NCBI GenBank assembly: GCA_035620395.1
Contig: DASPGW010000189.1
Span: 1-37,921, forward strand
Direction: 5' to 3'
DNA length: 37,921 nt
From: Desulfuromonadales bacterium
GTDB lineage: Bacteria; Desulfobacterota; Desulfuromonadia; Desulfuromonadales; DASPGW01
Under the pieces are notes generated by a model. The model did no database searches. It was not told where the DNA came from and saw nothing but the letters and a program-made list of their open reading frames with translations. Below, in pieces: positions 5,112 to 28,586 of the stretch. The position numbers were made by a program, and so were the translations under genes. Numbering within the stretch: the first letter of the stretch is position 1; each line of letters opens with the position of its first letter.

Positions 5112-5828
5112 TCAGAACCCCCCGAAGAGCGGCCCCGCCTCGAACCGGCGCTTCCACTCGTCGTAGCCGATGACGTAGTTGTAGCCGCAGACGGTGGCGA
5201 GCTTGCGGCCGGCAAGGATTTCCCCGATGCGGCGGCCGCCCGCCATGGTGCGGTCGGCCGGGCCGTAGGGGTTGTACTTCATGCCGTCGCCCGCCAGAAA
5301 GACGTAGTCGCAGATGAAGAGGGTCTCCTCGAAGAGGTAGAGGGTGAAGCCGGGGGTGTGGCCGTCGACGTGGAAGGCCTCGATACCGTGCTGGACGAAG
5401 TCCTCCGCGAAGGTGCCGTCGAAGGTGAAGGGGCGGCAGATCGCGTGGACCGAGTCGTCCCGGTGGATGCGCACCTCGGCGCCGAAGAGTTCCCGGTAGA
5501 GGTTGCAGGCGCCGAGGAAGTGGTGGTGGGTGAAAAGAACCGTCTCCACCGGCGCCAGCGAGGCGTCGAAGGAGGACGGACAGTCGATCCAGCAGGCGCC
5601 GCGGCCCGTCTCGATGCGGTAGGCGGCGTGCTCATAGCCGAGGGCCGGCTGTGAATTGAGCCGTGTCACCTTTTCGTTCACCGGCGTGGCCGCCACCCGG
5701 TAGCGGGCCGAGCACTCCTCGGCGGTGATGAAGCGCTCCTTCGGCGCCCCGCAGAAGGGGCAGCGATCAGGATGAAAGCCGACCATGTTGAAACCGCAGG
5801 CGAGGCAGACGTACTGCTCCTTTTTCAT
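5112..5828 (-). CDS. Zinc-ribbon/rubredoxin-like plus metallo-beta-lactamase-fold protein
   Basis: A 238-residue protein. Residues 1-30 form a rubredoxin-like or zinc-ribbon knuckle (C8, C11, C23, C26). The remainder resembles a metallo-beta-lactamase fold: THHH at 100-103, DGHTPG at 155-160 and ICD ending at D174. The usual HxHxDH motif is only partly kept, because after HHH the residues are FLG rather than an Asp-His pair, and no clear final His is visible. It may therefore bind one metal or none and act by electron transfer or regulation rather than hydrolysis; that is inference. The ATG at 5828 follows a GAGAGGAGG ribosome site. It is monocistronic and divergent from the gene at 6029. Confidence 0.75.
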   Translation of the reverse strand: MKKEQYVCLACGFNMVGFHPDRCPFCGAPKERFITAEECSARYRVAATPVNEKVTRLNSQPALGYEHAAYRIETGRGACWIDCPSSFDASLAPVETVLFTHHHFLGACNLYRELFGAEVRIHRDDSVHAICRPFTFDGTFAEDFVQHGIEAFHVDGHTPGFTLYLFEETLFICDYVFLAGDGMKYNPYGPADRTMAGGRRIGEILAGRKLATVCGYNYVIGYDEWKRRFEAGPLFGGF

Positions 5829-5955
5829 GGGACCTCCTCTCCAGGTTGTCAGGAAATTCCATTATTGCACCCCCGGCGGAAACCGCAACCGGCCGGCGCC
5901 GGGGAAGAGAAAAGACAGGGGGGCAGGCCACCCGGTCAAAACAATCGCCGGGTGG

Positions 5956-5961
5956 TACAAT
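5956..5961 (+). promoter_or_regulatory. Possible -10 box ahead of the PhoU-like/PPDK-like pair
   Basis: TACAAT, five of six matches to TATAAT, lies about 68 bases before the ATG at 6029. No strong -35 is visible at the right spacing, so this is weak support for a promoter in the divergent gap. Confidence 0.25.
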
Positions 5962-6028
5962 GGTTTCGAGGCCGCTTCACAGGAAAATTCCGGTGAAGGT
6001 GTGAACACTACATCCTGAGGGTCACAGA

Positions 6029-7975
6029 ATGAGCGAAAAGGCCCGCATAGTTGCTGCTCTCGGCGAGCGCCGCCTGCTCCTGCCGTTTCTGCTGAATGAA
6101 GCGCTGGCGGCGAATGACCGCGCCAAGTATCGCCTCACCCTCCTGCAGACGGCCAAGGCCCGCGCCGATGCCCCGGAGGGGGCGTTCTCCGATCTGCGCA
6201 CGGAACGTCTCGCCTGCGGCGTCACCGAGACCTGCTTCGACGAGGTCGTGGCCGGAGCGGCCCGGAGCGGGGCCGACACCTATGCGCTGCTCCATGCCGG
6301 CGAGGTCTGCTCGGCGCTGCGGGATGACCTGACGGCGATGCTCGCCCCCTTTGCCGCCTTGCAGAAACCGGAGGCCACTGCCTTTCAGGAGCGGCTGCAG
6401 CAGCTGTCAGGGACACCCTGGTGCGCCGGGGACGGCACGATCACGGCAGGAACCATTGCCTCCCTGACGTCAGGAGATCCCGCCCGCGGCGACAGCCTGC
6501 ATCTGCTCATCATGGAGATGCACAAGGGCCTGAACCGGCTGCAGGCCGAGATCGCTACCGAAAGCGTTGACGGCGCTCTCGCTTACGGCCTGCGGGGTGA
6601 GGACCGCTCCCTAGTCGCCGCCTTCATGAAGGGGGTCAACCGGACGCGGGCGCTCAAGTTCGACCATCCGGGTCTCGGCACCACCGCCACCCGCTCCGGC
6701 GGCAAGCTGATCCTGCAGAACGATATCGGCACCACCGACGCGCACGTGCTGGTGGTGCATGTCGAAGCCAGGCGCGTGACGGTGACCTGCAGCGACAATC
6801 ATCTGCCCCGCCTCCTCTTTTTCCAGGGGCTGTTCGCCGCCCGGGGTATGGCCTGGGAGGATGTCCACTCCCGTACCGACCAGGCCTTCGCGGGAGGGGT
6901 CTACCACCTCTGCGTCGGGACGTACGAGGCGCCGGGCAAGAAAGAGCTCAGGGCTTTTCTGACGCACCTCGGTTCGCGCCTGGTCTTCCTGATCGACTGG
7001 AACCGGGCCCGCAAGCGGTTGCAGCGTCTGGTCCCCAAGGCGGATGCTCTTTCCCTGCTCGCCTGGGCGGCGGGGGAAGACGTCGGTCACATGGCCTTTC
7101 TCAAGGCCGGCGGCGAACGGATGGTCTTCGACGCCCTGCAGTTCGTGGCCGGGGGTACCCTGACCTACGGTGTCACCCTCGCCGAACTGCTCGGCCGGGA
7201 AGCGGCCGTCTCCTACCTGCGCTTCATCCTCAAGGCTTGCGCCCTGGGCCTGATTCAAAACCGGCCGCTGGCCCTTATCCGCGACGAGGCGCGGGTGGAG
7301 CTGTACAAGTATTACCACAGCGCCCAGCAGAACCTCCTCGACCTCGCTGGCAACCATGCGGCGCTGGCGGTCGAGATCGCCACCGCCATCCGCGACGGGC
7401 TGCTCACCGTCTCCCGGCCCGAGACTGTTGCCGGCTTCGAGCGGATCGGCCAGCGTGCCAAGGATTGGGAGCGCAAGGCCGATGAACTCGTCATCCGGGG
7501 CCGCGAGCTGGCCCGGCAATCGGAGCAGGCCGATGCCATCCGGCAACTGCTCGAGGCCGCCGACGACATCACGGACGAACTGGAGGAGGCAGCCTTCCAT
7601 CTCACCCTCCTGAAGCCGGAGAGCCTGGCGGCAGAGATCCGCCGGTCGCTGGCCGCCCTGGCCCGGCTGCTGGTCGAAGGGACGCAGGAATACCTGAAGG
7701 CGATCGAGAACGTACGGGGCATCCACCGTAGCGGCTCGCCGGACGACATGCGCGACTTCCTCGAGTCGATTCACCGCATCATGGCCATCGAGCAGCAGAG
7801 CGATACCACGGAGCGGGCGGTGCGCAAGGCGCTGGTCGGCGCCGCGGAAGATTTCCGGCAGGCCTTCGTCATCGCCGAAAGCGCCAGGAAGCTGGAATCG
7901 GCCGCCGATGCCCTGATGCATGCCGGCATGCTCCTGCGCGACCAGATTCTCGGCCGGGTCATGGTGAGGCGATGA
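6029..7975 (+). CDS. PhoU/DUF47-like domain protein with a large unrecognised N-terminus
   Basis: A 648-residue soluble protein with no signal peptide or membrane segment. The C-terminal part (about residues 430-640) is a long helical region with the repeated acidic/heptad pattern of PhoU and DUF47 (TIGR00153-type) proteins, for example KDWERKADELV and AADDITDELEEAA. PhoU-like proteins regulate phosphate transport and usually bind metal clusters. The first 430 residues match no family I can name; they include a segment around residues 210-330 that looks like mixed alpha/beta. The stop overlaps the start of the PPDK-like gene (ATGA), so the two products are probably made together and may form a complex. 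How far the fold follows PhoU is an inference from pattern only. Confidence 0.7.
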   Translation: MSEKARIVAALGERRLLLPFLLNEALAANDRAKYRLTLLQTAKARADAPEGAFSDLRTERLACGVTETCFDEVVAGAARSGADTYALLHAGEVCSALRDDLTAMLAPFAALQKPEATAFQERLQQLSGTPWCAGDGTITAGTIASLTSGDPARGDSLHLLIMEMHKGLNRLQAEIATESVDGALAYGLRGEDRSLVAAFMKGVNRTRALKFDHPGLGTTATRSGGKLILQNDIGTTDAHVLVVHVEARRVTVTCSDNHLPRLLFFQGLFAARGMAWEDVHSRTDQAFAGGVYHLCVGTYEAPGKKELRAFLTHLGSRLVFLIDWNRARKRLQRLVPKADALSLLAWAAGEDVGHMAFLKAGGERMVFDALQFVAGGTLTYGVTLAELLGREAAVSYLRFILKACALGLIQNRPLALIRDEARVELYKYYHSAQQNLLDLAGNHAALAVEIATAIRDGLLTVSRPETVAGFERIGQRAKDWERKADELVIRGRELARQSEQADAIRQLLEAADDITDELEEAAFHLTLLKPESLAAEIRRSLAALARLLVEGTQEYLKAIENVRGIHRSGSPDDMRDFLESIHRIMAIEQQSDTTERAVRKALVGAAEDFRQAFVIAESARKLESAADALMHAGMLLRDQILGRVMVRR

Positions 7976-9573
7976 CGCACGACGGCATTTTCAGGATCGC
8001 CCCCCGCCGCATCGGCGTCTCCCGCGGGAGCGCGGATGAAATGGGGGTCAAGGCCTTCGATCTGGCGCGCCTGGCGCGTCTCGGGCTTCCCGTGCCGCCG
8101 GCCTTCGTCCTGGGAACCCTCCACTGCCGCCGCTGCTACCGGGCTCCGGAACGCTGCCGCAAGAACCTGACCCGCCTGCTGGAAGAGCAGACGCGCTGGC
8201 TCCAGTCGGTGACGGGGCTGGGGTTCGGCGATCCCCGCCGGCCGCTGCTGGTTTCCGTCCGCTCCGGGGCGCCGGCGTCGATGCCCGGCATGATGGATAC
8301 GCTGCTCAACATCGGCCTCTGCGATGCGACGGCCCGCGGCCTGCTGCGGATGACCGGCAATCCCCGGCTGGTCTGGGATTCGTACCGCCGTCTCATCGTG
8401 AATTTTGCCGAGGTGGCCTTCGGCGCCAGCCCGCAGCCGTTCGCCGCGGCGCTGGCGGTGGTGCTCGGCCGGGAGCAGGCGGAGCGGCCGCAGGACCTGG
8501 ACTACCTGAGCCTGGCCGAGCTCACCCGGACCTACCTCCAGCTCTTCCAGGAACTGACGGGAAAGCCGTTTCCCCAGAACCCTCCGGAGCAGCTCGAGCT
8601 TGCCGTGCAGGCCGTGATCGCCTCCTGGAACGCTCCCCGCGCCGTCGAATACCGCCGCCTCTATGAACTGCCCGACGAGCTCTGTACCGCGGTCACCATC
8701 CAGCAGATGGTCTTCGGCAATGCGGGAGGAACCTCGGGTGCGGGGGTGGGGTTCACCCGGGATCCGGATACGGGCGAGAAGAGGCTCTACCTCGATTTCC
8801 TGTTCAACAGCCAGGGGGAAGACGTCGTCTCCGGGCGCGCCACCGGTTCCGACGCCGAGCGGCTCTTTCCGGCCCTCCCCGAAACCGAACAGACCCTTCT
8901 CGGCATCGGGGCCGCCCTCGAGCAGGCATACGGCGACGCCCAGGAATTCGAATTCACCATTCAGGACGGGGTTCTCTACCTGTTGCAGACGCGAACGGCC
9001 AAGCGGACGCCGTGGGCGGCGCTGCGGATGGCGGTCGAACAGGTCGCAGAAGGGCTCATCGGGCCCGGCGAAGCGCTGGCCCGTCTGCATGGCCTCGCTC
9101 TTGACGACATCGGGCGCCAGCGGCTCGCCACCGGGGAGCAGGAGCCGCTCTGCCAGGGGCAGCCGGCGGGCATCGGCGTGGCCATCGGCCCACTCGCCCT
9201 CGACCTTGAGGCCGCCCGCCGGTTTGCCGCCGAAGGGCGGCCGGCGGTGCTCGTCCGCTTTGAGATGACCACCGCCGACATTGCCGGCATCGCCCTCGCG
9301 GCCGGCGTGCTGACGGCGCGGGGGAACCGCACCTCCCATGCGGCGGTGGTGGCGCGGCAACTCGGCAAGGCGTGCGTGGCGGGTTGCCGCCCCCTGCGGA
9401 TCGAGCCGGAGCGGCGGCGCGTCGCCTTCGGCGAACGGACCCTGGCCGAAGGGGAGCCGGTCACCCTCGATTCCAACACGGGACGGGTTTTTGCCGGCGA
9501 AGCGCAGCTCGCCATCGATTATCCGACGGTCTGGCTTGCGGAAATCCGGAAATGGCAGCAAGCCGGTCGATGA
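7972..9573 (+). CDS. Truncated pyruvate phosphate dikinase-like protein (ATP-grasp plus phosphohistidine domain)
   Basis: A 533-residue relative of PPDK. Residues 91-117 hold the nucleotide-binding signature of the PPDK ATP-grasp domain (VSVRSGA, SMPGMMDTLLNIGL), and QTR ends that domain near residue 343. The swivelling phosphohistidine domain carries the catalytic H456 in RTSHAAVVAR. True PPDK is about 870-900 residues and continues into a PEP/pyruvate-binding TIM barrel; here the chain ends about 78 residues after the His, so no PEP-binding domain exists. The protein could phosphorylate its own His from ATP, but the acceptor is unknown. It is translationally coupled (ATGA) to the PhoU-like gene and converges on sixA, which encodes a phosphohistidine phosphatase. 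Confidence 0.85.
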   Translation: MTHDGIFRIAPRRIGVSRGSADEMGVKAFDLARLARLGLPVPPAFVLGTLHCRRCYRAPERCRKNLTRLLEEQTRWLQSVTGLGFGDPRRPLLVSVRSGAPASMPGMMDTLLNIGLCDATARGLLRMTGNPRLVWDSYRRLIVNFAEVAFGASPQPFAAALAVVLGREQAERPQDLDYLSLAELTRTYLQLFQELTGKPFPQNPPEQLELAVQAVIASWNAPRAVEYRRLYELPDELCTAVTIQQMVFGNAGGTSGAGVGFTRDPDTGEKRLYLDFLFNSQGEDVVSGRATGSDAERLFPALPETEQTLLGIGAALEQAYGDAQEFEFTIQDGVLYLLQTRTAKRTPWAALRMAVEQVAEGLIGPGEALARLHGLALDDIGRQRLATGEQEPLCQGQPAGIGVAIGPLALDLEAARRFAAEGRPAVLVRFEMTTADIAGIALAAGVLTARGNRTSHAAVVARQLGKACVAGCRPLRIEPERRRVAFGERTLAEGEPVTLDSNTGRVFAGEAQLAIDYPTVWLAEIRKWQQAGR

Positions 9574-9638
9574 GCAGGGAGACCAGGTCGGGGCGAAGGG
9601 CGAGCTGCAAGAATGGTGGAAATAAGCCTTCCGGAGAG

Positions 9639-10136
9639 CTACTTCTGCGGGTTTTTCGGATAATCGAAAAAGACCTGGGTGCCTTGCCCTGCCGCCAATT
9701 CGGACCAGGCTGCGATGTCGAGATCGATGCAGACCACCCCGCAAGTTGGGATGTTGTCGATTTTAGTGCGGTTCACCACGTTGTTCAGGTCGGTGAAGCC
9801 CGGGTTGTGGCCGACCATCATGACGTGCTGGCATTCGTCGGTGAGGCCGCGCAGGATCCCGAGCAGGGTTTCCGGTGAAGCCTCGTAGATGGCGTCGACT
9901 TTTTCGACCTTGTCCTTGGCGAAGCCGATCTTGCCGGCGATTATCCTGGCCGTCTTGGCGGCGCGCCTGGCGGGGCTCGTCAGCAACAGGTCCGGCATCA
10001 TCTCTTTTTTGGCCAGGCGTTTTCCCATCAGGGGCGCGTTCTCTTCCCCTCGCTTGCTCAAGGGGCGGTCGATATCCTCCAGCAGGGGATCCTCGCGGCT
10101 CGATTTGGCGTGCCGGACCAGGGTCAATCGTTTCAT
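9639..10136 (-). CDS. sixA: Phosphohistidine phosphatase SixA
   Basis: A 165-residue histidine-phosphatase-superfamily protein. The catalytic motif is LVRHAKS (residues 6-12, with the nucleophilic His9), and a second catalytic His is in MVGHNPG. SixA removes phosphate from phosphohistidine: in E. coli it acts on ArcB and on the nitrogen phosphotransferase protein NPr. The length fits the family (about 160). The ATG at 10136 has a GGAG site. It is last in a minus-strand operon behind CHAD and CYTH, 16 bases after CYTH, and converges with the PPDK-like gene, whose swivelling His would be a plausible target; this link is inferred from position. Confidence 0.9.
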   Translation of the reverse strand: MKRLTLVRHAKSSREDPLLEDIDRPLSKRGEENAPLMGKRLAKKEMMPDLLLTSPARRAAKTARIIAGKIGFAKDKVEKVDAIYEASPETLLGILRGLTDECQHVMMVGHNPGFTDLNNVVNRTKIDNIPTCGVVCIDLDIAAWSELAAGQGTQVFFDYPKNPQK

Positions 10137-10152
10137 GACGGCTTATTCTCCT

Positions 10153-10617
10153 TTACCATTTTGAGAAAGGGTGACGGACGAGATTGGCGTTGTAGTAGCG
10201 CGGATCATGGGAGACGTCTTCGCCGGCCCAGTCGGGAAGGGAAAAGGCCTGATCTTCGTCGGCCAACTCCACCTCGGCCAGGGTCAGTCCCTGGTTCTCC
10301 CCCAGAAACTCATCCACCTCCCAGACCAGGCCGGCATGCTCGATACGGTAGCGGTATTTTTCGATCAGCGGCTGCAGGCAGAGGGTGTCGAGCATTTCAG
10401 CGGCCTCCCGGGGGGGGATCCGGTATTCGTACTCGGCCCGCGCGATCCCCTTCGAGGGGCCCTTGATGGTCAAAAAGCTCTCCTCCCCCACGACCCGCAC
10501 CCGCACGGTGCGCTCCTTTTCGGCCACCAGGTAGCCCTGCCGGTAAAGCTTTCCGGTGGCTCCCCTTTTCCAGGCGGTCCCGTTCACCAGAAATTTGCGT
10601 TCGATCTCGGTCGGCAT
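10153..10617 (-). CDS. CYTH domain protein (triphosphate tunnel metalloenzyme)
   Basis: A 154-residue CYTH-domain protein. The N-terminal signature EIERKFLV (residues 4-11, ExExK) and alternating charged residues along the strands (TVRVRVV, AEYEYRI, YRYRIEH, LAEVELA) line the tunnel that binds triphosphate with metal. Family members hydrolyse inorganic triphosphate or make cAMP or thiamine triphosphate products; the short single-domain form usually fits a triphosphatase. In this operon, beside CHAD and SixA and opposite Ppx, tripolyphosphate hydrolysis is the most likely role. The ATG at 10617 follows a GAGCAGGA site. Confidence 0.88.
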   Translation of the reverse strand: MPTEIERKFLVNGTAWKRGATGKLYRQGYLVAEKERTVRVRVVGEESFLTIKGPSKGIARAEYEYRIPPREAAEMLDTLCLQPLIEKYRYRIEHAGLVWEVDEFLGENQGLTLAEVELADEDQAFSLPDWAGEDVSHDPRYYNANLVRHPFSKW

Positions 10618-10636
10618 GTTCCTGCTCTTTTCTTTC

Positions 10637-10689
10637 TGGATTTTACTTCGTGTTCTTCCCGTCTTCGCGTGAGACTGCTTTTCCAGGTT
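10637..10689 (-). repeat. Half copy of a CGCGAAG dyad element, abutting the CHAD stop codon
   Basis: Read on the minus strand, the sequence from the CHAD stop codon onward (ACCTGGAAAAGCAG, then TCTCACGCGAAGACG, ending GAAGTAAAATCCA) nearly matches the left arm of the element at 18020-18147. Only one arm is present. It fills most of the 71-base gap between CHAD and CYTH. Confidence 0.75.
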
Positions 10690-11714
10690 TATTCGGGCAC
10701 AGATGGGTCCGTCGGCGGCGGAAACAATTCCTCGAAGAGCCTGCGGTTCCTGCCCCGGCAGAACCCTGCGAAGTGCGTCTTGAATTCCTTGCGCACCCGC
10801 TGCTGCTGTTCAGCCAGGCTGGCCACCAGCATCCCCATGGCGATGAGGGTCGCGGCCGGGGTTTCTCCTTCGTCGACCATTTGTTGACTGAATTGCCGCA
10901 AGGCGGCCCCCTGCACCTCCAGGTCCTGAAAGGCGCCGAGGTTCTCTTGCAGAAGCTTCAGGGCAGCGATGAGCTTATTGACCTTTTTGACCGGATAGAG
11001 CGGCTGGAAAAACTCCAGGAGGTAGCGCAGTTTCTTGCAGCTTCTGCGCAGTTGGTGCAGGTCCGTGGCCGGCGACGCCTTGGTGATCGCCTTCCCCTGC
11101 CTGACGACCCGCCGGTAGACCCGCGCGATCTGCTCCCCCGCAACCTCACTGACCGGCCGCCTGGCATTGGCCAGGGATGTTTTCGCCGGGACGTCCGCCT
11201 CCAGAAAAGCTCGCCAGCCATGCATCAACTGCCGGTAACGGTTGGAATCGAGGGCCTTGACCAGCGCTGCCTGCTCCTTTTTCTGATGGCTCTTCAGGAA
11301 ATCATGCAACGGCTGCAAGTCGTTCTGCACTGCCTGCGGCAGTCTGGCCCGGTAATCCGGCAAGTGCAGCAGGTAGACGTCGAGGTCGCGGGTCGGGCCG
11401 GTGACCTCCCCCAGCCAGGCAAACCCGGTGCGGAACCGCTCCAGCGCCTTTTTGGGGAAAACGTCCCGGATCTGCCCCAAGGCAGTGCGCGTGCGGCGCA
11501 CGGCAACCCGGAAATCGTGCAGATATTCAGGGCCGAGGTCGGCCATGGCCCCGGCTTCGTTGGCCGTCAGGGCGCCGAACTGCTGCAGCAGAACGGCTTT
11601 GGCGGCGGCATCGGTCCGCATGGCCGCATCGAGCGGTCGACCTGTAAGCCTTGCCGGTGGTGGTGCCGGGCCTGTATCCCGGGGGATGAGAAGCTCCCCC
11701 TCCTGCACAGCCAT
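10689..11714 (-). CDS. CHAD domain protein
   Basis: A 341-residue helical protein of the CHAD family (conserved histidine alpha-helical domain). The two characteristic repeats are visible: LHDFRVAVRRTR near residue 65 and LHQLRRSCKKLRYLL near residue 220, each rich in His, Arg and Lys on one face. CHAD domains bind polyphosphate and localise to polyphosphate granules; they are often fused or adjacent to CYTH, as here. The ATG at 11714 is used; a GTG two codons earlier (11720) is an alternative. The start lies within 10 bases of the stop of the small Lys-rich gene, so the two are probably co-translated. No export signal. Confidence 0.88.
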   Translation of the reverse strand: MAVQEGELLIPRDTGPAPPPARLTGRPLDAAMRTDAAAKAVLLQQFGALTANEAGAMADLGPEYLHDFRVAVRRTRTALGQIRDVFPKKALERFRTGFAWLGEVTGPTRDLDVYLLHLPDYRARLPQAVQNDLQPLHDFLKSHQKKEQAALVKALDSNRYRQLMHGWRAFLEADVPAKTSLANARRPVSEVAGEQIARVYRRVVRQGKAITKASPATDLHQLRRSCKKLRYLLEFFQPLYPVKKVNKLIAALKLLQENLGAFQDLEVQGAALRQFSQQMVDEGETPAATLIAMGMLVASLAEQQQRVRKEFKTHFAGFCRGRNRRLFEELFPPPTDPSVPE

Positions 11715-11721
11715 GCTCACG

Positions 11722-11886
11722 TTACTTTTTCCCTTTCTTCCCTTTCTTGTCCTTATCCCCTTTTCCCTTGATCTTAGCGGGTTTGCAAAGATGTTTCTTC
11801 TTCTCGCTGACGGCCTCGCACTTCTCGCACCGGAACGCTCCCGCTTGCGGTTTGGCTTCGGATTTCCCTTTCAGGCAGGACCCCAT
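11722..11886 (-). CDS. Small Lys-rich Cys protein (54 aa), first gene of the CHAD-CYTH-SixA operon
   Basis: A 54-residue frame with four cysteines (C4, the CEKC pair C20/C23, and C34) followed by a tail made almost only of Lys, Gly and Asp; 18 of 54 residues are lysine. A ribosome site (AGAGAGG) precedes the ATG at 11886, and a good -10 box lies about 50 bases upstream, so it is the first gene of the operon. The Cys spacing suggests a small zinc knuckle. The basic tail could bind nucleic acid or polyphosphate, an idea supported only by the adjacent CHAD gene. I do not recognise a named family. Confidence 0.75.
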   Translation of the reverse strand: MGSCLKGKSEAKPQAGAFRCEKCEAVSEKKKHLCKPAKIKGKGDKDKKGKKGKK

Positions 11887-11931
11887 GGTGAAAACCTCTC
11901 TTCGGCATGTTCATCCTCGCTTCTGTCGGCT

Positions 11932-11960
11932 ATTATAACAGTGGCAGTATTTGCTTGCAG
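11932..11960 (-). promoter_or_regulatory. Sigma-70-type promoter for the CHAD-CYTH-SixA operon
   Basis: On the minus strand a perfect TATAAT (11932-11937) is preceded at 17 bases by CTGCAA (11955-11960), a weak -35. Transcription would begin near 11925, about 40 bases before the ATG of the Lys-rich gene. It lies in the divergent gap shared with the Ppx/GppA gene. Confidence 0.5.
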
Positions 11961-12051
11961 GGAATCTGCTGTGGGTGCCCCTTTTTAACAAGGCGCTAAC
12001 CGAACGGTGATATGCTCCTCTCCAGATGGTTTTCATGCTACGGAGTTCCCG

Positions 12052-13587
12052 GTGACCGGAGAGAAAAAGCGTCTGGCCGCGATCGACATCGGCACCAATT
12101 CCATCCGCTGCATCGTCGTGGAAGCCGATGCCGGCGGCAAATTCAATGTGCTGGATGACGAAAAGGCGACGGTCCGTCTCGGCGAAGGTCTGGCCGGCAG
12201 CGGCGAGATCTCCCCCGAGGCCTGGCGGCGGGCCGAGGCGGCCCTGCTGCGGATGAAGAAGATCGCCGAAGGCTATGGGGTGCAGTCCATCGAGGCCGTG
12301 GCCACCAGCGCCGTGCGCAAGGCCCGCAACGGCGAGGCGTTCGTCGAGGCCATGGCACGGGCTACGGGCGTGCAAATCGCCGTCATTTCCGGCGACGAGG
12401 AAGCGGAACTGGTGGCCCTGAGCGCCCGCAGCAGCCTCGACCTGGAGAACCTGCGCTGCGCCCTGGTCGACATCGGCGGCGGGAGCCTGGAGATCGTCGT
12501 CACCGCCGGGGAACTGATCGAGGAGATCTTTTCCCTGGAGCTGGGGGCAGTGGTGCTGACGGAGGAGTTTCTCCCCAAAGACCCCGTGCTGGCCAAAGAC
12601 CTCAATGCCTTGCGCAAGCATGTGCGCTCGACTCTGAAGAAGCACCTCGCCGGGGAGTCCTTCGACGTCCAGTGCCTGGTCGGCTCGGGGGGGACCATGA
12701 CTACCATCGCCGGCATGGTCATGGCGATGCGCAAGGAGCAGTTCAGCTCGGTCCACGGCTACGACGTGCTGCGCTCCGAGGTGGTGCACCTGCTGGCGAT
12801 GCTGGAACGAAAAACCCTCAGGGAGCGCAAAGCCCTGCCCGGCCTCAGCCCCGACCGGGCGGATATCATCCTCGCCGGAGTGGCCGCTGTCGATGAGGTG
12901 ATGCGGTACTTCGGCGTCAATATTCTCAGGGTCAACGAGCGCGGGGTTCGTCAGGGGCTGATCCTGAAGAGCCTGGAAAAGCACGGGCTGGCACCACTGC
13001 CCGAAGCGGCGAAAAACCGGATCGCTTCGGTCTGGGATTTTGCCCGCCAATGCCATGTCAACGAAAGCCACGCCGGGCAGGTCGCGAAACTGGCCCTGGA
13101 TATCTTCGACGCCGTCGGCCCGGCATTCGGCCTGGAGAGCCGCAACCGGCAGATCCTCGAAGCGGCGGCGATTCTCCATGACGTCGGCTATCTCATCAAT
13201 TACGAGAAACACCACCAGCACTCCTACCACCTCATTCGCCACGCCAACCTTTTCGGTTTCTCCCCCCGCGAGAAGGAAGTCGTCGCCAACCTCGCCCGCT
13301 ACCATCGCAAGAAGCTGCCGCGGAAAAAGCACGAGAACTTCGCGCTTCTCCCTCCCGAGGACCGGCGGCTGGTCAAACAGCTGGGTGGCATTCTGCGCCT
13401 GGCCGACGGCCTCGACCGGCGGCGCAATCAGGCCGTCGAGGCGCTCGACTGCCAGCTCACCGACTCAGGGCTCTGCATCACCCTGCACGGCCAGGAGGAT
13501 CTCTCCGTGGAAATTTACGGTGGCGAGACCAAGAGCGATCTGTTCGAGGAGGCGTTCCACTGTAAAGTATCCCTGCAGAGTGACTAG
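12052..13587 (+). CDS. ppx: Ppx/GppA family phosphatase (exopolyphosphatase) with HD-type C-terminus
   Basis: A 511-residue member of the ASKHA-fold Ppx/GppA family. The N-terminal phosphate-binding loop AAIDIGTNSIRC and the second loop VDIGGGSLEI (about residue 140) are intact. The C-terminal third is an HD-like helical domain with ILHDVGYLI near residue 375 and RYHRKK further on. The family removes terminal phosphate from polyphosphate or converts pppGpp to ppGpp; sequence alone does not separate the two. The GTG at 12052 with CGGAG six bases upstream is preferred; another in-frame GTG at 12007 would add 15 atypical residues. It is divergent from the CHAD-CYTH-SixA operon, which argues for a polyphosphate role. 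Confidence 0.88.
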   Translation: MTGEKKRLAAIDIGTNSIRCIVVEADAGGKFNVLDDEKATVRLGEGLAGSGEISPEAWRRAEAALLRMKKIAEGYGVQSIEAVATSAVRKARNGEAFVEAMARATGVQIAVISGDEEAELVALSARSSLDLENLRCALVDIGGGSLEIVVTAGELIEEIFSLELGAVVLTEEFLPKDPVLAKDLNALRKHVRSTLKKHLAGESFDVQCLVGSGGTMTTIAGMVMAMRKEQFSSVHGYDVLRSEVVHLLAMLERKTLRERKALPGLSPDRADIILAGVAAVDEVMRYFGVNILRVNERGVRQGLILKSLEKHGLAPLPEAAKNRIASVWDFARQCHVNESHAGQVAKLALDIFDAVGPAFGLESRNRQILEAAAILHDVGYLINYEKHHQHSYHLIRHANLFGFSPREKEVVANLARYHRKKLPRKKHENFALLPPEDRRLVKQLGGILRLADGLDRRRNQAVEALDCQLTDSGLCITLHGQEDLSVEIYGGETKSDLFEEAFHCKVSLQSD

Positions 13588-20935: not shown

Positions 20936-21853
20936 TTAGCGGCCTGCCTTTTCCCTCAGGTCGGCAAGCCGTGCCAGGTTCTCCCTGGCCCGCATGTAGA
21001 GTTGCGGGTTCAGGTCAACCGCCTTCTTCAACGCCTGCTCGCTTTTCTCCCATTTTCCTTGCGTCATGTACAGATAGCCCAAATTGTTCCAGGCGGCAGC
21101 TTCACCCAAGGTCTTGATAAAAATTTCCTTGGCCCGTGTTTCCTCGCCGTTCAGGAAGTAAGCGGTTGCCAGGTTGTTCTGAAGCATGCGGTTGCGCGGT
21201 TCGATGGCCAAGGCCCGGCTGAAGGACTCGATCGCTTTGTCGTGCTTGCCCTGCAGCAGGTAGTTGAAGCCGAGATTGTTGTGACTTGACGCCTGTTCCG
21301 GTTTCAACTCTGCTACTTGGCGGAACATCGGCTCAGCCATCGGGTCGCGGCCCATGTGACTGGAGGTGACGGCCATCTCGGTCAGGATCTCGGGTGCATC
21401 AGGGGCCTTGAAGAGGGCCTTGCCGGCCCATTCTAGGGAGAGGTCGTAGTTTCCCTGGCTGCGGTAGATTCTTGCCAGGGCGAGCATGGCGCCGACATGA
21501 TCGGGGTCGTTTTTCACCACCAAGGTGAAGATCTGGACAGCCCCTTGCGTCTCAGTCTCGCGCCGCAGACATTCACCCAAACCGAACAGGGCCTCGGTCG
21601 ACGAGGGCTCCCTCTCCAGGGCGACGGCGAAATGCAACCGAGCTACGCCTGTCCGGCCAGCCGCCAGATGATCCTGGCCGAGTCGGACAAGTTCTGCCGT
21701 AGGCAGCTTCTGCAGCGAATCGTTGCCTTGCTCCTTCCTGAGTTCTGCCACCTTGCCGTCCATTTGCCTAGTGGGAACCAAGGTGGTACAGGCGCTCGAT
21801 AGCAGGCAAAGCAACAAACCAGTGACGTACACCAAATAATTATCCTGCCGCAT
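20936..21853 (-). CDS. tadD: TadD-like TPR lipoprotein
   Basis: A 305-residue protein whose leader ends in a lipobox-like LSSAC (C22), so it is probably a lipoprotein. The rest is a run of tetratricopeptide repeats, with clear units such as NNLGFNYLLQGKHDKAIESF and NNLGYLYMTQGKWEKSEQAL, ending in a short helix. In the tad system TadD is a lipoprotein needed for pilus assembly and for the stability of the outer-membrane secretin. It is preceded by tadC with 24 bases between. Acidic and polar surface residues suggest a scaffold. Confidence 0.85.
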   Translation of the reverse strand: MRQDNYLVYVTGLLLCLLSSACTTLVPTRQMDGKVAELRKEQGNDSLQKLPTAELVRLGQDHLAAGRTGVARLHFAVALEREPSSTEALFGLGECLRRETETQGAVQIFTLVVKNDPDHVGAMLALARIYRSQGNYDLSLEWAGKALFKAPDAPEILTEMAVTSSHMGRDPMAEPMFRQVAELKPEQASSHNNLGFNYLLQGKHDKAIESFSRALAIEPRNRMLQNNLATAYFLNGEETRAKEIFIKTLGEAAAWNNLGYLYMTQGKWEKSEQALKKAVDLNPQLYMRARENLARLADLREKAGR

Positions 21854-21877
21854 GTTCGAAAACCTTTCGATTTAATT

Positions 21878-22870
21878 TTACTCCCCGCCCAAGGTGGGCA
21901 GAAGAATTCTTATGATCTGGATAACGCCGGGACCCAGGATAACGACAAACAATGCCGGAAAAATGAAGAACACCAAAGGGAACAGCAGTTTGACTGCCGC
22001 TTTGGCTGCCGTTTCTTCGGCTGTCTGGCGTCTTTTGGTCCGCATGGAGTCTGAATGAACCCGTAGGGCCTTCCCGATGCTGGTGCCAAAGCGGTTGGTC
22101 TGGATAATCATGGTCATCAGTTGGCCGATCTCCGGCACGCCGGTGCGGACCGACATGTTTTTGAAGCTTTCGTCACGGGGCCGGCCGGAGCGTATTTCCA
22201 GGTTGGTGAGCAGGAATTCGTCGCTCAGATCTTTGCTGATCGACCGGATTTCTTCGCCGACCCGCTTGAAGGTCATGTCCAACCCAAGGCCGGCCTCGAC
22301 ACAGACGACCATTAGATCGAGGGCGTCGGGGAAGGCTCTGGCCAAGGCCGTTTTGCGTTTCTGGATTTTGAGAAACAGAACGATGTCGGGAAGAAAGAAG
22401 CCGAAGACGGCGAGCAGGATCATGATGCCAACCCGCTCCACGGTGATCTTCAGAACCAGCGAACTCAGCAGGAAGAACAGGGATAAAAGCAGTGCGCCGC
22501 CGATCTTGAGGCAAAGAAAATTGGCGAAAGCCTGCTTCGACCTCATCCCGGCCTGCATCAGCCTGAGGCGGATTGAGGAAGTTTCGCCGGCCGGGGTGGC
22601 CAGCACGAGTTTGTGTAATGACCTGGAAATGCTGGCAGCGAGCCCGTCCGGATCTTTTTCGACCAGCCTGGCTTTTTTTGGCTGCAGCAGCTGATCGGAT
22701 TTTGGCTGCGCCAGCAGCTTGGAGAGCCGCTCGCCGACCCGGTCGCGGTTTATGAGGAGGTAGGCAAGGCCGCCGACCAGCAGGACCACCGCGAGAAAGG
22801 TCAGGACGAGGATCAGGATGTACTCCAGGTCCCCTGAAAAAAGATAGAGATAGTTTTTTATCGTACCCAT
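21878..22870 (-). CDS. tadC: TadC, type II secretion F-domain membrane protein
   Basis: A 330-residue inner-membrane protein of the T2SF (GspF/PilC) family. A hydrophobic segment near residues 15-38 is followed by a basic linker, a pair of membrane helices near 120-165, the F domain with DALDLMVVCVEAGLGLDMTF, and two helices at the C-terminus. With TadB it forms the platform on which the TadA ATPase drives Flp pilus assembly. The ATG at 22870 is chosen; the frame continues upstream into tadB but that part is only a shadow of tadB. Nine bases separate it from tadB. Confidence 0.92.
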   Translation of the reverse strand: MGTIKNYLYLFSGDLEYILILVLTFLAVVLLVGGLAYLLINRDRVGERLSKLLAQPKSDQLLQPKKARLVEKDPDGLAASISRSLHKLVLATPAGETSSIRLRLMQAGMRSKQAFANFLCLKIGGALLLSLFFLLSSLVLKITVERVGIMILLAVFGFFLPDIVLFLKIQKRKTALARAFPDALDLMVVCVEAGLGLDMTFKRVGEEIRSISKDLSDEFLLTNLEIRSGRPRDESFKNMSVRTGVPEIGQLMTMIIQTNRFGTSIGKALRVHSDSMRTKRRQTAEETAAKAAVKLLFPLVFFIFPALFVVILGPGVIQIIRILLPTLGGE

Positions 22871-22878
22871 GCCGCCCC

Positions 22879-23853
22879 CTAAATCTCTATTTTCACGAGC
22901 CTCTTGATGAAATATACGCCGAGGATCTGCAGCACGATGGCACCGGAGATAAAGTAGGTTCCGATCGGGTCGGTCCAGAGCAGGGCGATGTAATCGTTGT
23001 TGATGAAGTAGAGGTAGACAAAGAGGATAATCGGGATGGAGATCAGGATGTTTCCGGAAAGCCTGCCTTCGGCAGTGAGGGTTTTGACATTCCGCCTGAA
23101 TTGGGTCCGTTCCCGGATCAGGGCGCCGATCCGGTCCAGGATTTCGGCGATGTTCCCTCCCGTTTCCTTCTGGATGATGACCGAGACCGCAAAGAACCGA
23201 AGATCCATGCTGGGGACCCGATTGCACAGGTTTTCAAGGGCTTCGCTAAAGGTCAGGCCGAGTTTCATCTCGTCGACGGCGGCCCGGAACTGGGACTTGA
23301 TCGGCTCGTCCATCTCCTGGCTTACCATCTCTAGGGCGGAAGAAAAGGCATGGCCGGCCCGCAAGGCCCGGGCCATCAGATCCGTTGCCGCGGGAAGCTG
23401 TTCCTCGAACCTGGCGTCGGAGGCTTTTTCTGCCCACCTCAGGATCAGGAAGGGGATGAAGAAAAACAGAGCGCCCAGCACTATTGCCGTAAACTTGATG
23501 GGCAGCAGCCAGAGGCCGAGCAACGTACCGATTCCGCCCAGCGTCAGGCTGAGGAGGATGAAGGCGGTGGCGTTCAGAGGAACCCTCGCCTTGACCAGCA
23601 TCCGGTCAAGCTTTTGGATGCGCGGGAGGGAGAAGGCGAAGCGTTCAACGGGATTGGCATTTTTCAGCAGACCGTTGCGGTAGCCAGTGAGCCGCTCCAA
23701 GCCGAGTCCGCCGCCGGCGGAAAGGTAGAGAAGGCGATTTTTGATGGTCCTCTTCTCGCCAAACCGGCCGACCCACAGCAGGTAGGCCAGGGCGACGAGC
23801 GAAGCGGAGAAGAGAAAGACAGTAATCGAGATGGTTAAGATCAGCAGGTCCAT
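22879..23853 (-). CDS. tadB: TadB, type II secretion F-domain membrane protein
   Basis: A 324-residue inner-membrane protein. An N-terminal helix (about residues 5-27), two helices around 95-140, the F domain (AATDLMARALRAGHAFSSAL; QKETGGNIAEILDRIGALIR) and two C-terminal helices can be seen. It pairs with TadC to make the Flp pilus platform. It lies eight bases after tadA and eight before tadC, so these three are one tightly spaced translational unit. Confidence 0.92.
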   Translation of the reverse strand: MDLLILTISITVFLFSASLVALAYLLWVGRFGEKRTIKNRLLYLSAGGGLGLERLTGYRNGLLKNANPVERFAFSLPRIQKLDRMLVKARVPLNATAFILLSLTLGGIGTLLGLWLLPIKFTAIVLGALFFFIPFLILRWAEKASDARFEEQLPAATDLMARALRAGHAFSSALEMVSQEMDEPIKSQFRAAVDEMKLGLTFSEALENLCNRVPSMDLRFFAVSVIIQKETGGNIAEILDRIGALIRERTQFRRNVKTLTAEGRLSGNILISIPIILFVYLYFINNDYIALLWTDPIGTYFISGAIVLQILGVYFIKRLVKIEI

Positions 23854-23861
23854 GATGGCCT

Positions 23862-25214
23862 CTATTCGTAATACTTGTCAGGGTCGAAGAGCGATTCGGG
23901 GAGTTCGATGCCCGCGGCCTGAAGTTTTTCGGAAAAATGGGGGCGGATGCCGGTAGCGCGGAAGCGCCCGAGAAGGTTGCCGTTTTTGTCGATGCCGCGG
24001 CGCTCGAAGACGAAGATATCCTGCAAGGTGATGACGTCGCCTTCCATACCGGCGACTTCGCTGATGGCGGTCACCTTGCGGGTGCCGTCTGAGAAGCGAA
24101 CGATCTGCAGAATCAGGTCGAGGGCCGAAGAGACCATGAAGCGCATGGCGCTTTCGGGCAGGTCGACTCCGGTCATAAAGATCATCGACTCTAGACGGGT
24201 CAGCGAATCCCGCGGCGAGTTGGAGTGGATGGTGGTCAGCGAGCCCTCGTGACCGGTGTTCATGGCCTGCAACATGTCGAAGGCCTCGGGTCCGCGCACC
24301 TCCCCAATGATGATGCGGTCGGGGCGCATGCGCAGGCTGTTGCGCACAAGGTCGCGCTGGGTGACCATGCCGGTCCCCTCGATGCTCGGCGGCCGGGTTT
24401 CCAAGCGGATCACATGCTCTTGCTGCAGTTGAAGCTCGGCGGCATCCTCGATGGTGACTATGCGCTCGCGGTTGGGAATGAAGCCAGAGAGGATGTTGAG
24501 CATAGTTGTCTTGCCGGTGCCGGTGCCGCCCGAGATCATGATGTTCAACTTGGCTTTTACGCAGCCTTCCAGAAACTGGGCGAACGCTGGTGTGAGGCTG
24601 CCGAAGCCGATCAGGTCCTGCACCTTCAAAGGGTCTTTGGAGAAGCGCCGGATGGAGAGCATCGGGCCGTCGATGGCCAGCGGGGGGATGATGGCATTAA
24701 CGCGGGAGCCGTCGGGGAGTCGGGCATCGACCATTGGTGATGACTCGTCGATGCGGCGGCCCACCCTCGAAATGATGCGGTCGATGATGGTCATCATGTG
24801 GGCATCGTTGACAAAGCGGTGGCGGGTCTTCTCCAGCATGCCGCGGCGCTCGACGTAGATGTTGCGGTAGGTGTTGCAGAGGATGTCGGAAATGGTCGGG
24901 TCCTTCATCAGCGGTTCGAGCGGGCCAAGTCCAACGAGTTCGTCGATGATTTCATGGATGATGGCGCGTTTTTCCGGCTCATTGAGCAGTACCTTCTCAT
25001 CGCCCAGGAATTTCTCCACCAATTCGGAGATTTCGGGACGGATGGCCGCGGCGGGCAGAGAGTGCAGCACCTCGAGGTTGGCCTCCTCGATGATGCGCAG
25101 GTGGACCTTCTGCTTGATGGCGTAGAAGGAGTCGTCCTGGTTGTAGAGGGAATCGACGGGACTGACCTGCTGGGGAGGTTGGGATTCCCTGGCGAAAAGG
25201 TTCTTGAGCATCAC
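23862..25214 (-). CDS. tadA: TadA/CpaF secretion ATPase
   Basis: A 450-residue type II/IV secretion ATPase that powers Flp pilus extension (and, in Caulobacter CpaF, retraction). The N-terminal domain (1-180) is followed by the RecA-like core: Walker [10 protein letters not shown] with K235, Walker B IIIGEVRG with E305, and the His box [10 protein letters not shown] (321-330). The length is typical. It is cytoplasmic, with no membrane segment. It follows tadZ by nine bases and is followed by tadB. Confidence 0.95.
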
Positions 25215-25223
25215 GGCGTCCTC

Positions 25224-26402
25224 CTAGACGGCTTTGCCGAAGGTCCCCCGCACACCCCGGTAGTTCAGATGGGCGGCTGGATGCTGGAGTTTCTGGATGA
25301 ATTCGACAATGTTGCGGGTGAGCGGACTCCTGGGGTTGAGCTTGATCAGGGGGATGCCCCGGTTGATCGACGAGATGACGTTCTCGAAGTCGTTGGGAAA
25401 GAGCCAGAAGATCTTCTTGCCGAGGGTCTTTTCCGCTGAATCGAGAGACAGGGGAGTTTCCTTGATGTAGCGATTGACGACGATTTCGATTTTCTGGGTA
25501 GAAATGCCGAGTTTGCGAATGTGCTGAAAGAGCCGGGCGGCGTTGCGGATCGCCGGCACCGACAGGTCGCTGACGATGAAGACCTTGTCCGAAGCCAGCA
25601 AAGCCTGGAAGTTGCTTTCGCTGACCGACATGGACGGGCAGTCGATGATTACGCAGCGGTGGGCTTCCCGAGTCAGGGCGCAGATTCGCTCGATTTTCTC
25701 TGCGGTGATTTCCTCGCAGTCATCCGGGTTAACCGGAGCTGCCAGGTAGTTCAAGCCGGTCGCGTGGCGGATCATCGCCCCCTTGAGAAAAGAGGCGTCA
25801 AGGCGGTGGAAGTTGCGGCAGACGTCGGCAATGGAGGTTTCGGGAACGAGGTCAAGCAGCACCGAGCAATCCCCAGACTGGAAACTCATGTCGCACAGGG
25901 CCGTCGCCGCTCCGCGCCCCTCTGCCAGGGCGGTCGCCACGTTGACGGCGATGACGGTGGCGCCCAACCCCCCCTTGCTGCTGATGAAACTGTAGCACGG
26001 GCCGGCGGCGGCTGATTCCTGTCGTCCGCGCTGCTCACGCACCTTTTCGATAGCTCCGCGCAGGGTCTGGGGGTCGAGGGGGGTGGCGAAGTATTCGGCC
26101 GCCCCGGCTTTCATGATCTCGACGATGTGTTCAGGCCGCCGGTCGGCCGAGATGACGAAGATCGACGCCAGCGGGAAACTCTTGCGCAGGCCGGCCAACT
26201 TGCGGAAGATGTCGCTTGCTTCGGGCAGATCCTCCACCAGGATGATCTCGGGAGGCGCCTTGAAGGCGGTCGTCCCACGGTCGCCCTGCTCGCTGACCCT
26301 GTGGGTAAGGGTGATGCTCGTGAGATTCTTGAGATCCTCGGAGAGTTCCTTCGCCAGGCTCAGGTCGTGAATTTCGAAAACGATGTTGAGGTTTTGTCCC
26401 AT
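25224..26402 (-). CDS. tadZ: TadZ/CpaE, MinD/ParA-like pilus localisation protein
   Basis: A 392-residue protein. Residues 1-125 form a receiver-like alpha/beta domain (EIILVEDLP, VISADRR) and residues 130-392 a MinD/ParA-like ATPase domain. The P-loop is SSKGGLGATV (141-150), where the usual Lys of GKT/GKS is Ala; an atypical Walker A is known for TadZ proteins. TadZ localises the pilus machine at the cell pole. The ATG at 26402 has GGGG just upstream; a TTG at 26426 would overlap the tadG stop. It is followed by tadA. Confidence 0.9.
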   Translation of the reverse strand: MGQNLNIVFEIHDLSLAKELSEDLKNLTSITLTHRVSEQGDRGTTAFKAPPEIILVEDLPEASDIFRKLAGLRKSFPLASIFVISADRRPEHIVEIMKAGAAEYFATPLDPQTLRGAIEKVREQRGRQESAAAGPCYSFISSKGGLGATVIAVNVATALAEGRGAATALCDMSFQSGDCSVLLDLVPETSIADVCRNFHRLDASFLKGAMIRHATGLNYLAAPVNPDDCEEITAEKIERICALTREAHRCVIIDCPSMSVSESNFQALLASDKVFIVSDLSVPAIRNAARLFQHIRKLGISTQKIEIVVNRYIKETPLSLDSAEKTLGKKIFWLFPNDFENVISSINRGIPLIKLNPRSPLTRNIVEFIQKLQHPAAHLNYRGVRGTFGKAV

Positions 26403-26422
26403 TGGTTTGCCCCAATTATCCG

Positions 26423-27784
26423 TCAAGGGTAGTTGATGGAACCTTTCACTAGGACCGGGATGGAAGCCAGCACTCCGAAATTGCTGCCCCCCGTCCCGCC
26501 CAGAGGTTCCTTGAATTCGCAGGAAGGGAGTGCGTAGATGGTTTTGGCGTAATAGTGGTCATAGGCAGGGATCCCCGGAGAGATCTCCAGGTCGAAGTGG
26601 TCGACGAAACTGTCCCAGCGCGCTTTGCCGGTCAGGGAAGAGCCGTCCCAGTCCTGCATCCTGGTCGGAAGGTCTGTGTATTTCTGCTCTTCATTTTGCG
26701 GGAAATTGCGGGTGATCAGAATGATGTCGATAGTCACGGCGCCGATGATTTTTTTGCAACCGGTGATGTTGCCGGTCATGGTGTCTGAGCCCTCGACGCA
26801 GTCCACCACGGGAAGGGTAAGCCGCCAGGGCTGATCGCGGATCGGGCCGAGGTCCGGGTTGAATCCGCCGCAGTTTCTGATGTCGGAGAAGATGTTGTCG
26901 TTCTGCCCGCCGCCGACCGAAATGCCTACCCCGCCGGGGATTCTCATGGGGTTGGAGCCGTCGCAATCACTCGGATAATTGATGAGCCCCATTAGGTCGC
27001 TGTTGTTGACATTGTCCGTGCAGCCGACCGAGAAGTTCGTCCAGGCGCCGGTGTTGGAGTCTTCCTTGGAGGCGCTGTTGATCATGCGCCCCTTGCCGCA
27101 GGAATAGAGTCCGTTTTCGTCGAGGATGCTTTCTTCGCAAATGGCGATCGGCTGGTCGAACACGCTCTCCTCGAAGGATCCACCTGCAAAGCCGACATAT
27201 GCCACTGCCTCGGCCTGCATGGCGAAATTCTCGTAGCCGAGGAGCCGGGCGAAGAAAGAGGGGGCCGGTGTGCCCTCGCGGTGCGTGACGACTCGGACGG
27301 CGTTGATGAAAGCGGGCCTGCCGGCCTGGCCATCCATTCTGTCCAGTTGGTCTTCCGTATAACTGCCGATATCGATGGGCGCTGTCTCGTCGAGGGGGTA
27401 GAATTTTCTTTCCCAGAAACTCCAGTGCCCTCTCTGCACGTCGCCGGTATTGTCGCCCGTCAGGTTGTTCACCTCAACGGCGACCTTGACGCTGGTGTTC
27501 CTGATGGCGGCCTCGCGGGCGGACTGGTTGGCTCCCGGGTTGACCCAGCCAATCTCTGCTTCGGATTCGGCGACTGGTGGTTGGTCCGCGCGGAAGTAAA
27601 GCTGGCCGGCGCCGGCAAGCGCACCGGCATCGGCGGCATTCTGCAACTCGTTCTTCACCACAACCAGGTGGCCGATGTCGACGGCCAGCGCTGCTGCGCT
27701 CAGAAAAACAATGAGGAGCAGGGCGAACAGGACGACGACGGCTCCGCCTTCGTCCTTGAGTCGATCGATTCGAAACGGTGCCAT
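26423..27784 (-). CDS. tadG: TadG-like protein with large extracytoplasmic Cys-containing domain
   Basis: A 453-residue protein with one N-terminal membrane helix (about residues 12-36, after GGAVVVLFALLLIVFLSAAA). The Tad-type motif VDIGHLVVVKNELQNAADAGALAGA follows in the first 65 residues, as in TadE/TadG-like domains. The remaining 390 residues are predicted outside the cytoplasm and contain eight cysteines, which could form disulfides. This long domain has no family I can name. GGGGAG before ATG 27784 supports that start; ATG 27814 overlaps the tadE stop and is the alternative. The gene stands between tadE and tadZ. Confidence 0.82.
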   Translation of the reverse strand: MAPFRIDRLKDEGGAVVVLFALLLIVFLSAAALAVDIGHLVVVKNELQNAADAGALAGAGQLYFRADQPPVAESEAEIGWVNPGANQSAREAAIRNTSVKVAVEVNNLTGDNTGDVQRGHWSFWERKFYPLDETAPIDIGSYTEDQLDRMDGQAGRPAFINAVRVVTHREGTPAPSFFARLLGYENFAMQAEAVAYVGFAGGSFEESVFDQPIAICEESILDENGLYSCGKGRMINSASKEDSNTGAWTNFSVGCTDNVNNSDLMGLINYPSDCDGSNPMRIPGGVGISVGGGQNDNIFSDIRNCGGFNPDLGPIRDQPWRLTLPVVDCVEGSDTMTGNITGCKKIIGAVTIDIILITRNFPQNEEQKYTDLPTRMQDWDGSSLTGKARWDSFVDHFDLEISPGIPAYDHYYAKTIYALPSCEFKEPLGGTGGSNFGVLASIPVLVKGSINYP

Positions 27785-27810
27785 GGCGCACTCCCCTTGC
27801 TGCCGGTCGT

Positions 27811-28221
27811 TCATACTCCCGGGACCTCTCTGCGCATGATCGTGCTGGTGCTCAGGTTGATGACCGGCATGGGCAGGTAAAGGAAATCATAGCTGAAGTT
27901 CACTGTGGCCCGCACATAATCCGGGTCGGACCGGTCGATGGTGAGGTCGGACAGGGTCAAAGTATCACTGCCGAAGGTGATCGGCAGGCTGCCATAGGAA
28001 TCGAAAATCTTCTGCTTGACCCTGGTGTCCCGGGCATCGTTCGCATCCGTGGTGAAAACGATTCCTTCCCGTGCCATCTCGCGGCTGGCGTTGGTGATGA
28101 TCGCCTTGTCGTAGAGGATGATGCCGAACTCTATGATGCCCAGCAGAATGAGCAGCAGCACCGGCAGGATCAAGGCGAATTCGACCAGGGCAGCGCCGTT
28201 CTCTTCGCGAATCCTCATCAT
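27811..28221 (-). CDS. tadE: TadE-like pseudopilin
   Basis: A 136-residue pseudopilin. A short leader ends at G9, followed by AALVEFALILPVLLLILLG: cleavage G9|A10 gives Glu at mature position +5 (E14), the rule for substrates of the TadV peptidase. A single hydrophobic helix is followed by a periplasmic beta-rich tail. The start at ATG 28221 has GGAAGGG before it; the frame begins at a TTG further up. Its stop overlaps an alternative start of the TadG-like gene. Confidence 0.88.
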   Translation of the reverse strand: MMRIREENGAALVEFALILPVLLLILLGIIEFGIILYDKAIITNASREMAREGIVFTTDANDARDTRVKQKIFDSYGSLPITFGSDTLTLSDLTIDRSDPDYVRATVNFSYDFLYLPMPVINLSTSTIMRREVPGV

Positions 28222-28289
28222 GGTTTCCCTTCCATCAATCGTACTCAATCCCGGCGATTGGTCGGGTCCTCTTTAGTCGTTGGTGGTTG

Positions 28290-28571
28290 CTATCTGACCC
28301 CTTGGGAGGTCAGCCCCAGTTCAAAGATTTCCGTTTCTGCCGGCTTTTCGGCGAATGTCCTGTTATATATCCCCATGACCTCTTCGGCGTTGACCCCCTC
28401 CATCCCCGTCGGGGCCTGGCCGACGTATTTGTAGTTGGGGTTAGCCACCTGCTTGTCCCAGGAGGCGAGCTGCCCCTGGCCCCACTCGCGGTCGACGTAA
28501 TAGGCCTCTTCCAAGGTGGCGCAGCCAGCGAGGAGAGCAATCGCCATCAGGGCGAAAATCAGCTTGTTCAT
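28290..28571 (-). CDS. Small lipoprotein of the tad operon
   Basis: A 93-residue precursor with a lipobox at LLAGC (C17), so about 77 residues of mature lipoprotein. The mature part begins ATLEEAYYVDREWGQG and is otherwise uncharacterised. It sits between the RcpA secretin (15 bases away) and tadE, the place where other tad clusters hold a secretin-assisting pilotin-like lipoprotein (RcpB/CpaD); this role is inferred from position only. AAGGAG precedes ATG 28571. I do not recognise a named family. Confidence 0.75.
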   Translation of the reverse strand: MNKLIFALMAIALLAGCATLEEAYYVDREWGQGQLASWDKQVANPNYKYVGQAPTGMEGVNAEEVMGIYNRTFAEKPAETEIFELGLTSQGVR

Positions 28572-28586
28572 GGTTTCTTCTCCTTG

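Follow-up and report, generated by a model that had tools for sequence, protein, structure and literature searches.

A 37,921-nucleotide stretch of DNA from a Desulfuromonadales bacterium (contig DASPGW010000189.1 of assembly GCA_035620395.1; hereafter, the window) carries two overlapping plus-strand genes, which we call PhoUx and tPPDK. PhoUx (6029..7975) encodes a 648-aa protein in which the Pfam family PhoU_div matches residues 504-629 only, with 28.3 bits. tPPDK (7972..9573), whose reading frame shares 4 nt with that of PhoUx, encodes a 533-aa truncated pyruvate phosphate dikinase (PPDK) composed of PPDK_N and the PEP-utilizers mobile domain, with no PEP-utilizers_C. A minus-strand run of four genes, encoding a Lys-rich protein, a CHAD protein, a CYTH protein, and a SixA-like phosphatase, converges on tPPDK, and a Ppx/GppA gene is divergent from that run. 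An initial annotation, made from the sequence alone, had described this convergent and divergent layout correctly and had suggested that the seven genes may act as one system. Its gene set and its end at 13587 stand, and its start at 5950 is corrected to 6029, where the first gene begins. The genome (3.3 Mb, 313 contigs, 96% complete; the window is contig C189) also encodes a full-length PPDK elsewhere, on contig C100.

The association of the two genes extends well beyond this genome. GTDB species genomes were scanned with PhoUx alone, which retrieved 252 encoding stretches, and the best 80 loci were taken for all 80-locus counts reported here. tPPDK lies directly downstream of PhoUx on the same strand in 80/80 loci, and the two genes overlap or are at most 65 bp apart in 78. 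PhoUx is scarce within the class Desulfuromonadia, occurring in nine of 244 genomes (the window genome included) and in none of the 37 order relatives searched; tPPDK, present in 10 of the 244, directly follows PhoUx in all nine. Bacterial hosts comprise Desulfuromonadia, Beta-, Gamma-, and Alphaproteobacteria, Planctomycetota, Gemmatimonadota, and Actinomycetota, while archaeal hosts include Methanomicrobiales, Methanosarcinales, Methanoperedens, and Nitrososphaerota (Thaumarchaeota). Two plasmids examined in detail both encode the pair, annotated there as DUF47 or phosphate transport regulator (PhoUx) and PEP/pyruvate-binding protein (tPPDK). The pairwise distance matrices of the two proteins correlate with r = 0.92, a value as high being obtained in 0 of 2000 permutations, and both proteins show what appear to be transfers between phyla (Thermoleophilia with Euryarchaeota, Chromatiales with Pirellulaceae). 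PhoUx and tPPDK are thus an obligate, co-inherited pair across bacteria and archaea. In a planctomycete relative (locus L155, G269:C379), a stop codon splits PhoUx, the stretch read holds no CHAD, and no tPPDK occurs within the 2.7 kb read downstream; this PhoUx copy is probably decaying.

tPPDK aligns to residues 17-528 of the 874-residue PPDK, ending ahead of the barrel, and thus comprises the ATP-grasp and the swivelling phosphohistidine domain. Its His456 corresponds to the PPDK catalytic His455, which is present in 76/76 tPPDK sequences that reach the position. Equivalents of K22, R92, E323, Q335, and R337 are kept in nearly all of 81 tPPDKs, and D321 is Asp or Glu. tPPDK is about 41-43% identical to the full-length PPDKs (TIGR01828) of its class and shares their catalytic residues, but it lacks their phosphoenolpyruvate (PEP)/pyruvate barrel (PEP-utilizers_C), which a profile search found in neither tPPDK nor PhoUx. 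The residue preceding the T-[SA]-H motif is Arg almost throughout the tPPDKs (once Lys), whereas it is Met or Lys in PPDKs and, where readable, Ser in VadK-like proteins. A maximum-likelihood tree resolved three separate groups, namely tPPDK (36 rows), full-length PPDK (22), and VadK-like truncated PPDK (8), with branch supports of 100/100 for the tPPDK clade and 99/96 for the VadK-like clade. Because tPPDK forms a clade of its own, its truncation marks an old, distinct family rather than local decay. The loss of the C-terminal barrel and the full-length PPDK elsewhere in the genome could have pointed to a decaying PPDK beside a coincidental cluster of phosphate genes. The comparative data refute that explanation, to which we assign a negligible probability, because tPPDKs form an ancient clade spanning Bacteria and Archaea, retain the catalytic residues, and have PhoUx as an invariant partner.

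A functional precedent for a dikinase of this architecture is VadK (Rv1127c) of Mycobacterium tuberculosis, a barrel-less PPDK that autophosphorylates on its catalytic His with ATP and Mg and regulates the methylcitrate cycle (PMC13400623). tPPDK likewise consists of the PPDK ATP-grasp and swivelling His domain without the pyruvate/PEP barrel, and it probably charges its His with phosphate from ATP. This step had been proposed in the initial annotation, and the intact His and ATP-site residues together with VadK autophosphorylation (PMC13400623) argue for it. The two proteins differ in other respects. VadK-like actinobacterial sequences, represented in the tree by rows from the order of Amycolatopsis rather than by Rv1127c itself, form another clade and, where readable, lack the Arg before T-[SA]-H; tPPDK is therefore excluded from the VadK clade. 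In addition, VadK has a role in the methylcitrate cycle and no reported PhoUx partner.

The partner protein is less readily placed. PhoUx consists of a conserved domain spanning residues 1-410 followed by a helical PhoU/DUF47 half (residues ~411-648). An AlphaFold2 model built from 75 sequences (mean pLDDT, 89) is helical with a small sheet, which rules out PhoUx as the missing PEP/pyruvate barrel. In Foldseek searches against the PDB, the PhoU half matches 3l39 with a TM score of 0.82. Like other PhoU/DUF47 proteins (PhoU_div; PDB 3l39, 2olt, 4q25), this half has the PhoU fold and both D/ExxxD metal motifs (D512-D516 and E588-D592), but PhoUx carries the extra N-terminal domain of ~410 aa. 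Residues 1-410 match no Pfam family and, by Foldseek of the model, no significant PDB fold; matches to a protein-kinase-like fold, with E values of about 1, were not significant. The most conserved portion of the protein is residues 151-410, above the PhoU half. Across 78 sequences, six His residues are invariant (H158, H165, H213, H239, H258, and H354), as are D192, D256, D323, R261, R328, K210, and K329. This conservation pattern leads us to infer an active or acceptor site in the N-terminal domain.

PhoU proteins are typically regulators, and the pair could accordingly be a regulatory histidine kinase of the VadK type, in which autophosphorylated tPPDK would modify or allosterically control PhoUx, and perhaps other proteins, to tune phosphate uptake or central metabolism with no small-molecule product. 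The invariant PhoUx His residues could take the phosphate, and VadK, the closest characterized truncated PPDK, both autophosphorylates on the equivalent His and regulates a metabolic cycle (PMC13400623). However, tPPDK forms a clade apart from VadK-like proteins and has a fixed, dedicated partner, and the N-terminal domain of that partner is conserved beyond the PhoU half in an active-site-like manner. We consider this regulatory role possible but unlikely.

The genes surrounding the pair connect it to phosphate and polyphosphate. Each gene named in the initial annotation was recognized by profile, with the Lys-rich gene conserved as described below. Nearest to tPPDK is a histidine phosphatase gene (9639..10136, minus strand), which we regard as accessory; its product has a His_Phos_1 domain with the RH motif and reads LVRHAKS and VGHNPG in translation. 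The earlier label of SixA is retained in weakened form, as SixA-like, because the score of 51.1 bits falls under the NCBIfam SixA equivalog cut-off of 74.5. The second accessory gene (10153..10617, minus strand) encodes a CYTH (triphosphate tunnel) protein (68.5 bits vs a cut-off of 23.2) with the ExExK motif, seen as TEIERKF. A stand-alone CHAD protein, a polyphosphate-binding domain, is encoded at 10689..11720 on the minus strand (204 bits vs a cut-off of 25.6), and a Ppx/GppA exopolyphosphatase with HD domain III at 12007..13587 on the plus strand (Ppx-GppA domain, 205.9 bits vs a cut-off of 27). These are the only CHAD and the only Ppx/GppA in the genome. PPK1 lies on a different contig, and no PPK2 was found in this genome. 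The minus-strand run opens with a gene for a 54-aa Lys-rich protein with Cys motifs (11722..11886), of the pattern MGSCLKGK...CEKC...KKGKK. It is a real conserved gene, present in 52 of the 244 class genomes, all from the order of the window, and is frequently found within a few kb of CHAD (e.g., in G092, G010, G019, and G076); its product is possibly polyphosphate-associated. Elsewhere in the window are Tad/Flp pilus assembly genes (20936-31104, minus strand; secretin, RcpC/CpaB, TadE/G-like, ATPase, two T2SSF proteins, and a TPR protein), a gene for an MtrC/MtrF-like multihaem c-type cytochrome with paired CXXCH motifs (33656-35002, plus strand), and a rubredoxin-like zinc ribbon joined to a metallo-beta-lactamase-like domain (5112-5828, minus strand; weak matches).

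Neighbor counts were obtained from the 80 loci, which total 1.29 Mb, with expectations derived from genome-wide densities. CHAD occurs in 14 loci (about 0.4 expected) and Ppx in 17 (about 0.5 expected); PhoU (8), PstS (7), SixA (7), and PPK1 (5) also recur. Poisson values for this enrichment are indicative only, because related genomes are not independent, and a separate earlier chance estimate was discarded, its genome list having been picked in part after neighbors were seen. With the sole CHAD and Ppx of the genome located here and the excess across 80 loci, the adjacency of these genes to the pair exceeds chance. The prediction that the gene set would be found adjacent beyond this genome is borne out for the pair and for Ppx, CHAD, PPK1, and Pst genes, which recur beside it. 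As one conserved system, however, the seven-gene set is ruled out, since SixA is near only 7/80 PhoUx loci and CYTH near 0/80, CYTH being seen only in this window; what survives of the proposal is a two-gene core with frequent CHAD or Ppx. By our own sorting, loci with polyphosphate neighbors fall into nine lineage groups, and the orientations of the neighbors vary among lineages, which suggests that the neighborhoods assembled independently. At a thaumarchaeotal pair locus (L089:7948-9315), a candidate PhaC-like polyhydroxybutyrate polymerase gene accompanies Pst genes, CHAD, Ppx, and SixA.

The link to CHAD also appears at the genome and protein levels. Every one of the 33 tPPDK-bearing genomes examined has a CHAD gene, vs 145 of the 244 class genomes; within the class, the proportions are 10/10 for tPPDK genomes and 135/234 for the others (Fisher p about 0.005). 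In a Planctomycetales metagenome-assembled genome (MAG), CHAD is fused in frame to PhoUx through a stop-free Pro/Ala-rich linker (L092:3676-6666), and no other CHAD was found in that genome. A search of the planctomycete order gave no additional CHAD-PhoUx fusions. These associations bear on the possibility that the phosphoryl group goes to an organic metabolite with no connection to polyphosphate, comparable to rifampicin or glucan in other dikinases, with the polyphosphate neighbors reflecting only general phosphate regulation. Dikinases sharing the ATP-grasp/His core do use diverse acceptors, rifampin phosphotransferase (RPH) being one example (PMC4844700), and in several hosts the pair is solitary or adjoins carbon-metabolism genes. 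Weighed against the enrichment of CHAD and Ppx in up to nine lineages and the CHAD-PhoUx fusion, an organic acceptor appears improbable.

Parts of this neighborhood have been described before. CHAD binds polyphosphate, and stand-alone CHAD occurs in polyphosphate operons (PMC6537752). CHAD-Ppx-SixA clusters are known from biomining archaea (PMC10892726), so this grouping is not new; the trio is clustered as in the window, but neither PhoUx nor tPPDK figures in the published descriptions. The initial annotation knew of no description of the exact set. In the open-access literature, we found nothing mentioning DUF47 together with a dikinase, and judged by title and abstract, no report on PhoU with PPDK and CHAD or polyphosphate describes the pair. 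We rate the pair as a non-canonical dikinase type with an undescribed partner.

Taken together, our preferred interpretation, to which we assign a probability of roughly 0.55, is that PhoUx-tPPDK is a two-subunit, ATP-charged phosphohistidine phosphotransferase for phosphate/polyphosphate metabolism, with PhoUx as the acceptor or regulatory subunit. Here, a dikinase would be divided over two genes, with PhoUx occupying the place of the missing pyruvate/PEP barrel. By homology and by analogy to VadK, tPPDK would bind ATP, probably together with inorganic phosphate like PPDK, and phosphorylate the swivelling His456. Were the two proteins to form a complex, the His domain could swing toward PhoUx, whose His/Asp/Arg/Lys-rich N-terminal domain would accept or relay the phosphoryl group, with metal-phosphate or a phosphate polymer bound by the PhoU half. 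Transfer in this direction is presumed. The most likely acceptor would be an inorganic phosphate polymer or a PhoUx residue controlling polyphosphate handling. More weakly, we infer PhoUx to be a second site resembling the substituted domains of rifampin phosphotransferase, in which the ATP-grasp and swivelling His are likewise retained and the acceptor domain is replaced (PMC4844700). That enzyme is one chain with the His domain last, whereas the presumed acceptor here is a separate, unrelated subunit. The pathway served would be phosphate/polyphosphate homeostasis, with CHAD, Ppx, and sometimes SixA, PPK1, and Pst as co-selected helpers; where it is present, at a minority of loci, SixA may act as an eraser.

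Several observations weigh against this interpretation. In 56 of the 80 loci, many of them short contigs, none of the tested phosphate/polyphosphate genes is nearby, and among the 31 loci longer than 21 kb, CHAD, Ppx, or PPK1 occurs in nine. One Desulfuromonadia genome (G041, L040:9050-10645) encodes tPPDK without PhoUx, beside Ppx and PPK1; this tPPDK also adjoins a small PilZ-like open reading frame identified by eye. The CHAD-PhoUx fusion comes from one MAG contig, and the PhoUx ATG within it may serve internally. Finally, a role as polyphosphate synthase would be redundant in most hosts, because PPK1 is present in most pair-bearing genomes. A more specific and tentative version is a two-subunit polyphosphate dikinase, in which the tPPDK phosphohistidine would exchange phosphate with PhoUx-held polyphosphate, either lengthening the polymer or, in the reverse direction, making ATP from AMP, pyrophosphate, and polyphosphate. 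Of 30 genomes searched for PPK1, which included four controls lacking the pair, 24 have it, so simple replacement of PPK by the pair is not general. Neither PPK1 nor PPK2 was found in G206 and G248, both possibly incomplete genomes. If true, such a polyphosphate dikinase would stand in for PPK or add to its activity, also in hosts in which PPK1 was not found, Thaumarchaeota among them.

Current annotation gives the two proteins no names beyond "DUF47 / phosphate transport regulator" and "PEP/pyruvate-binding protein." The pair is found in organisms investigated for phosphorus removal (Candidatus Accumulibacter, Zoogloea), methanogens, and Thaumarchaeota. Two culturable plasmid hosts, Methylocella tundrae T4 and Aquabacterium olei, carry it, which opens the pair to direct testing. 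A split dikinase-type enzyme found in Bacteria as well as Archaea, with an acceptor domain lacking a recognized fold, would bring a new reaction or control step into phosphate/polyphosphate metabolism.

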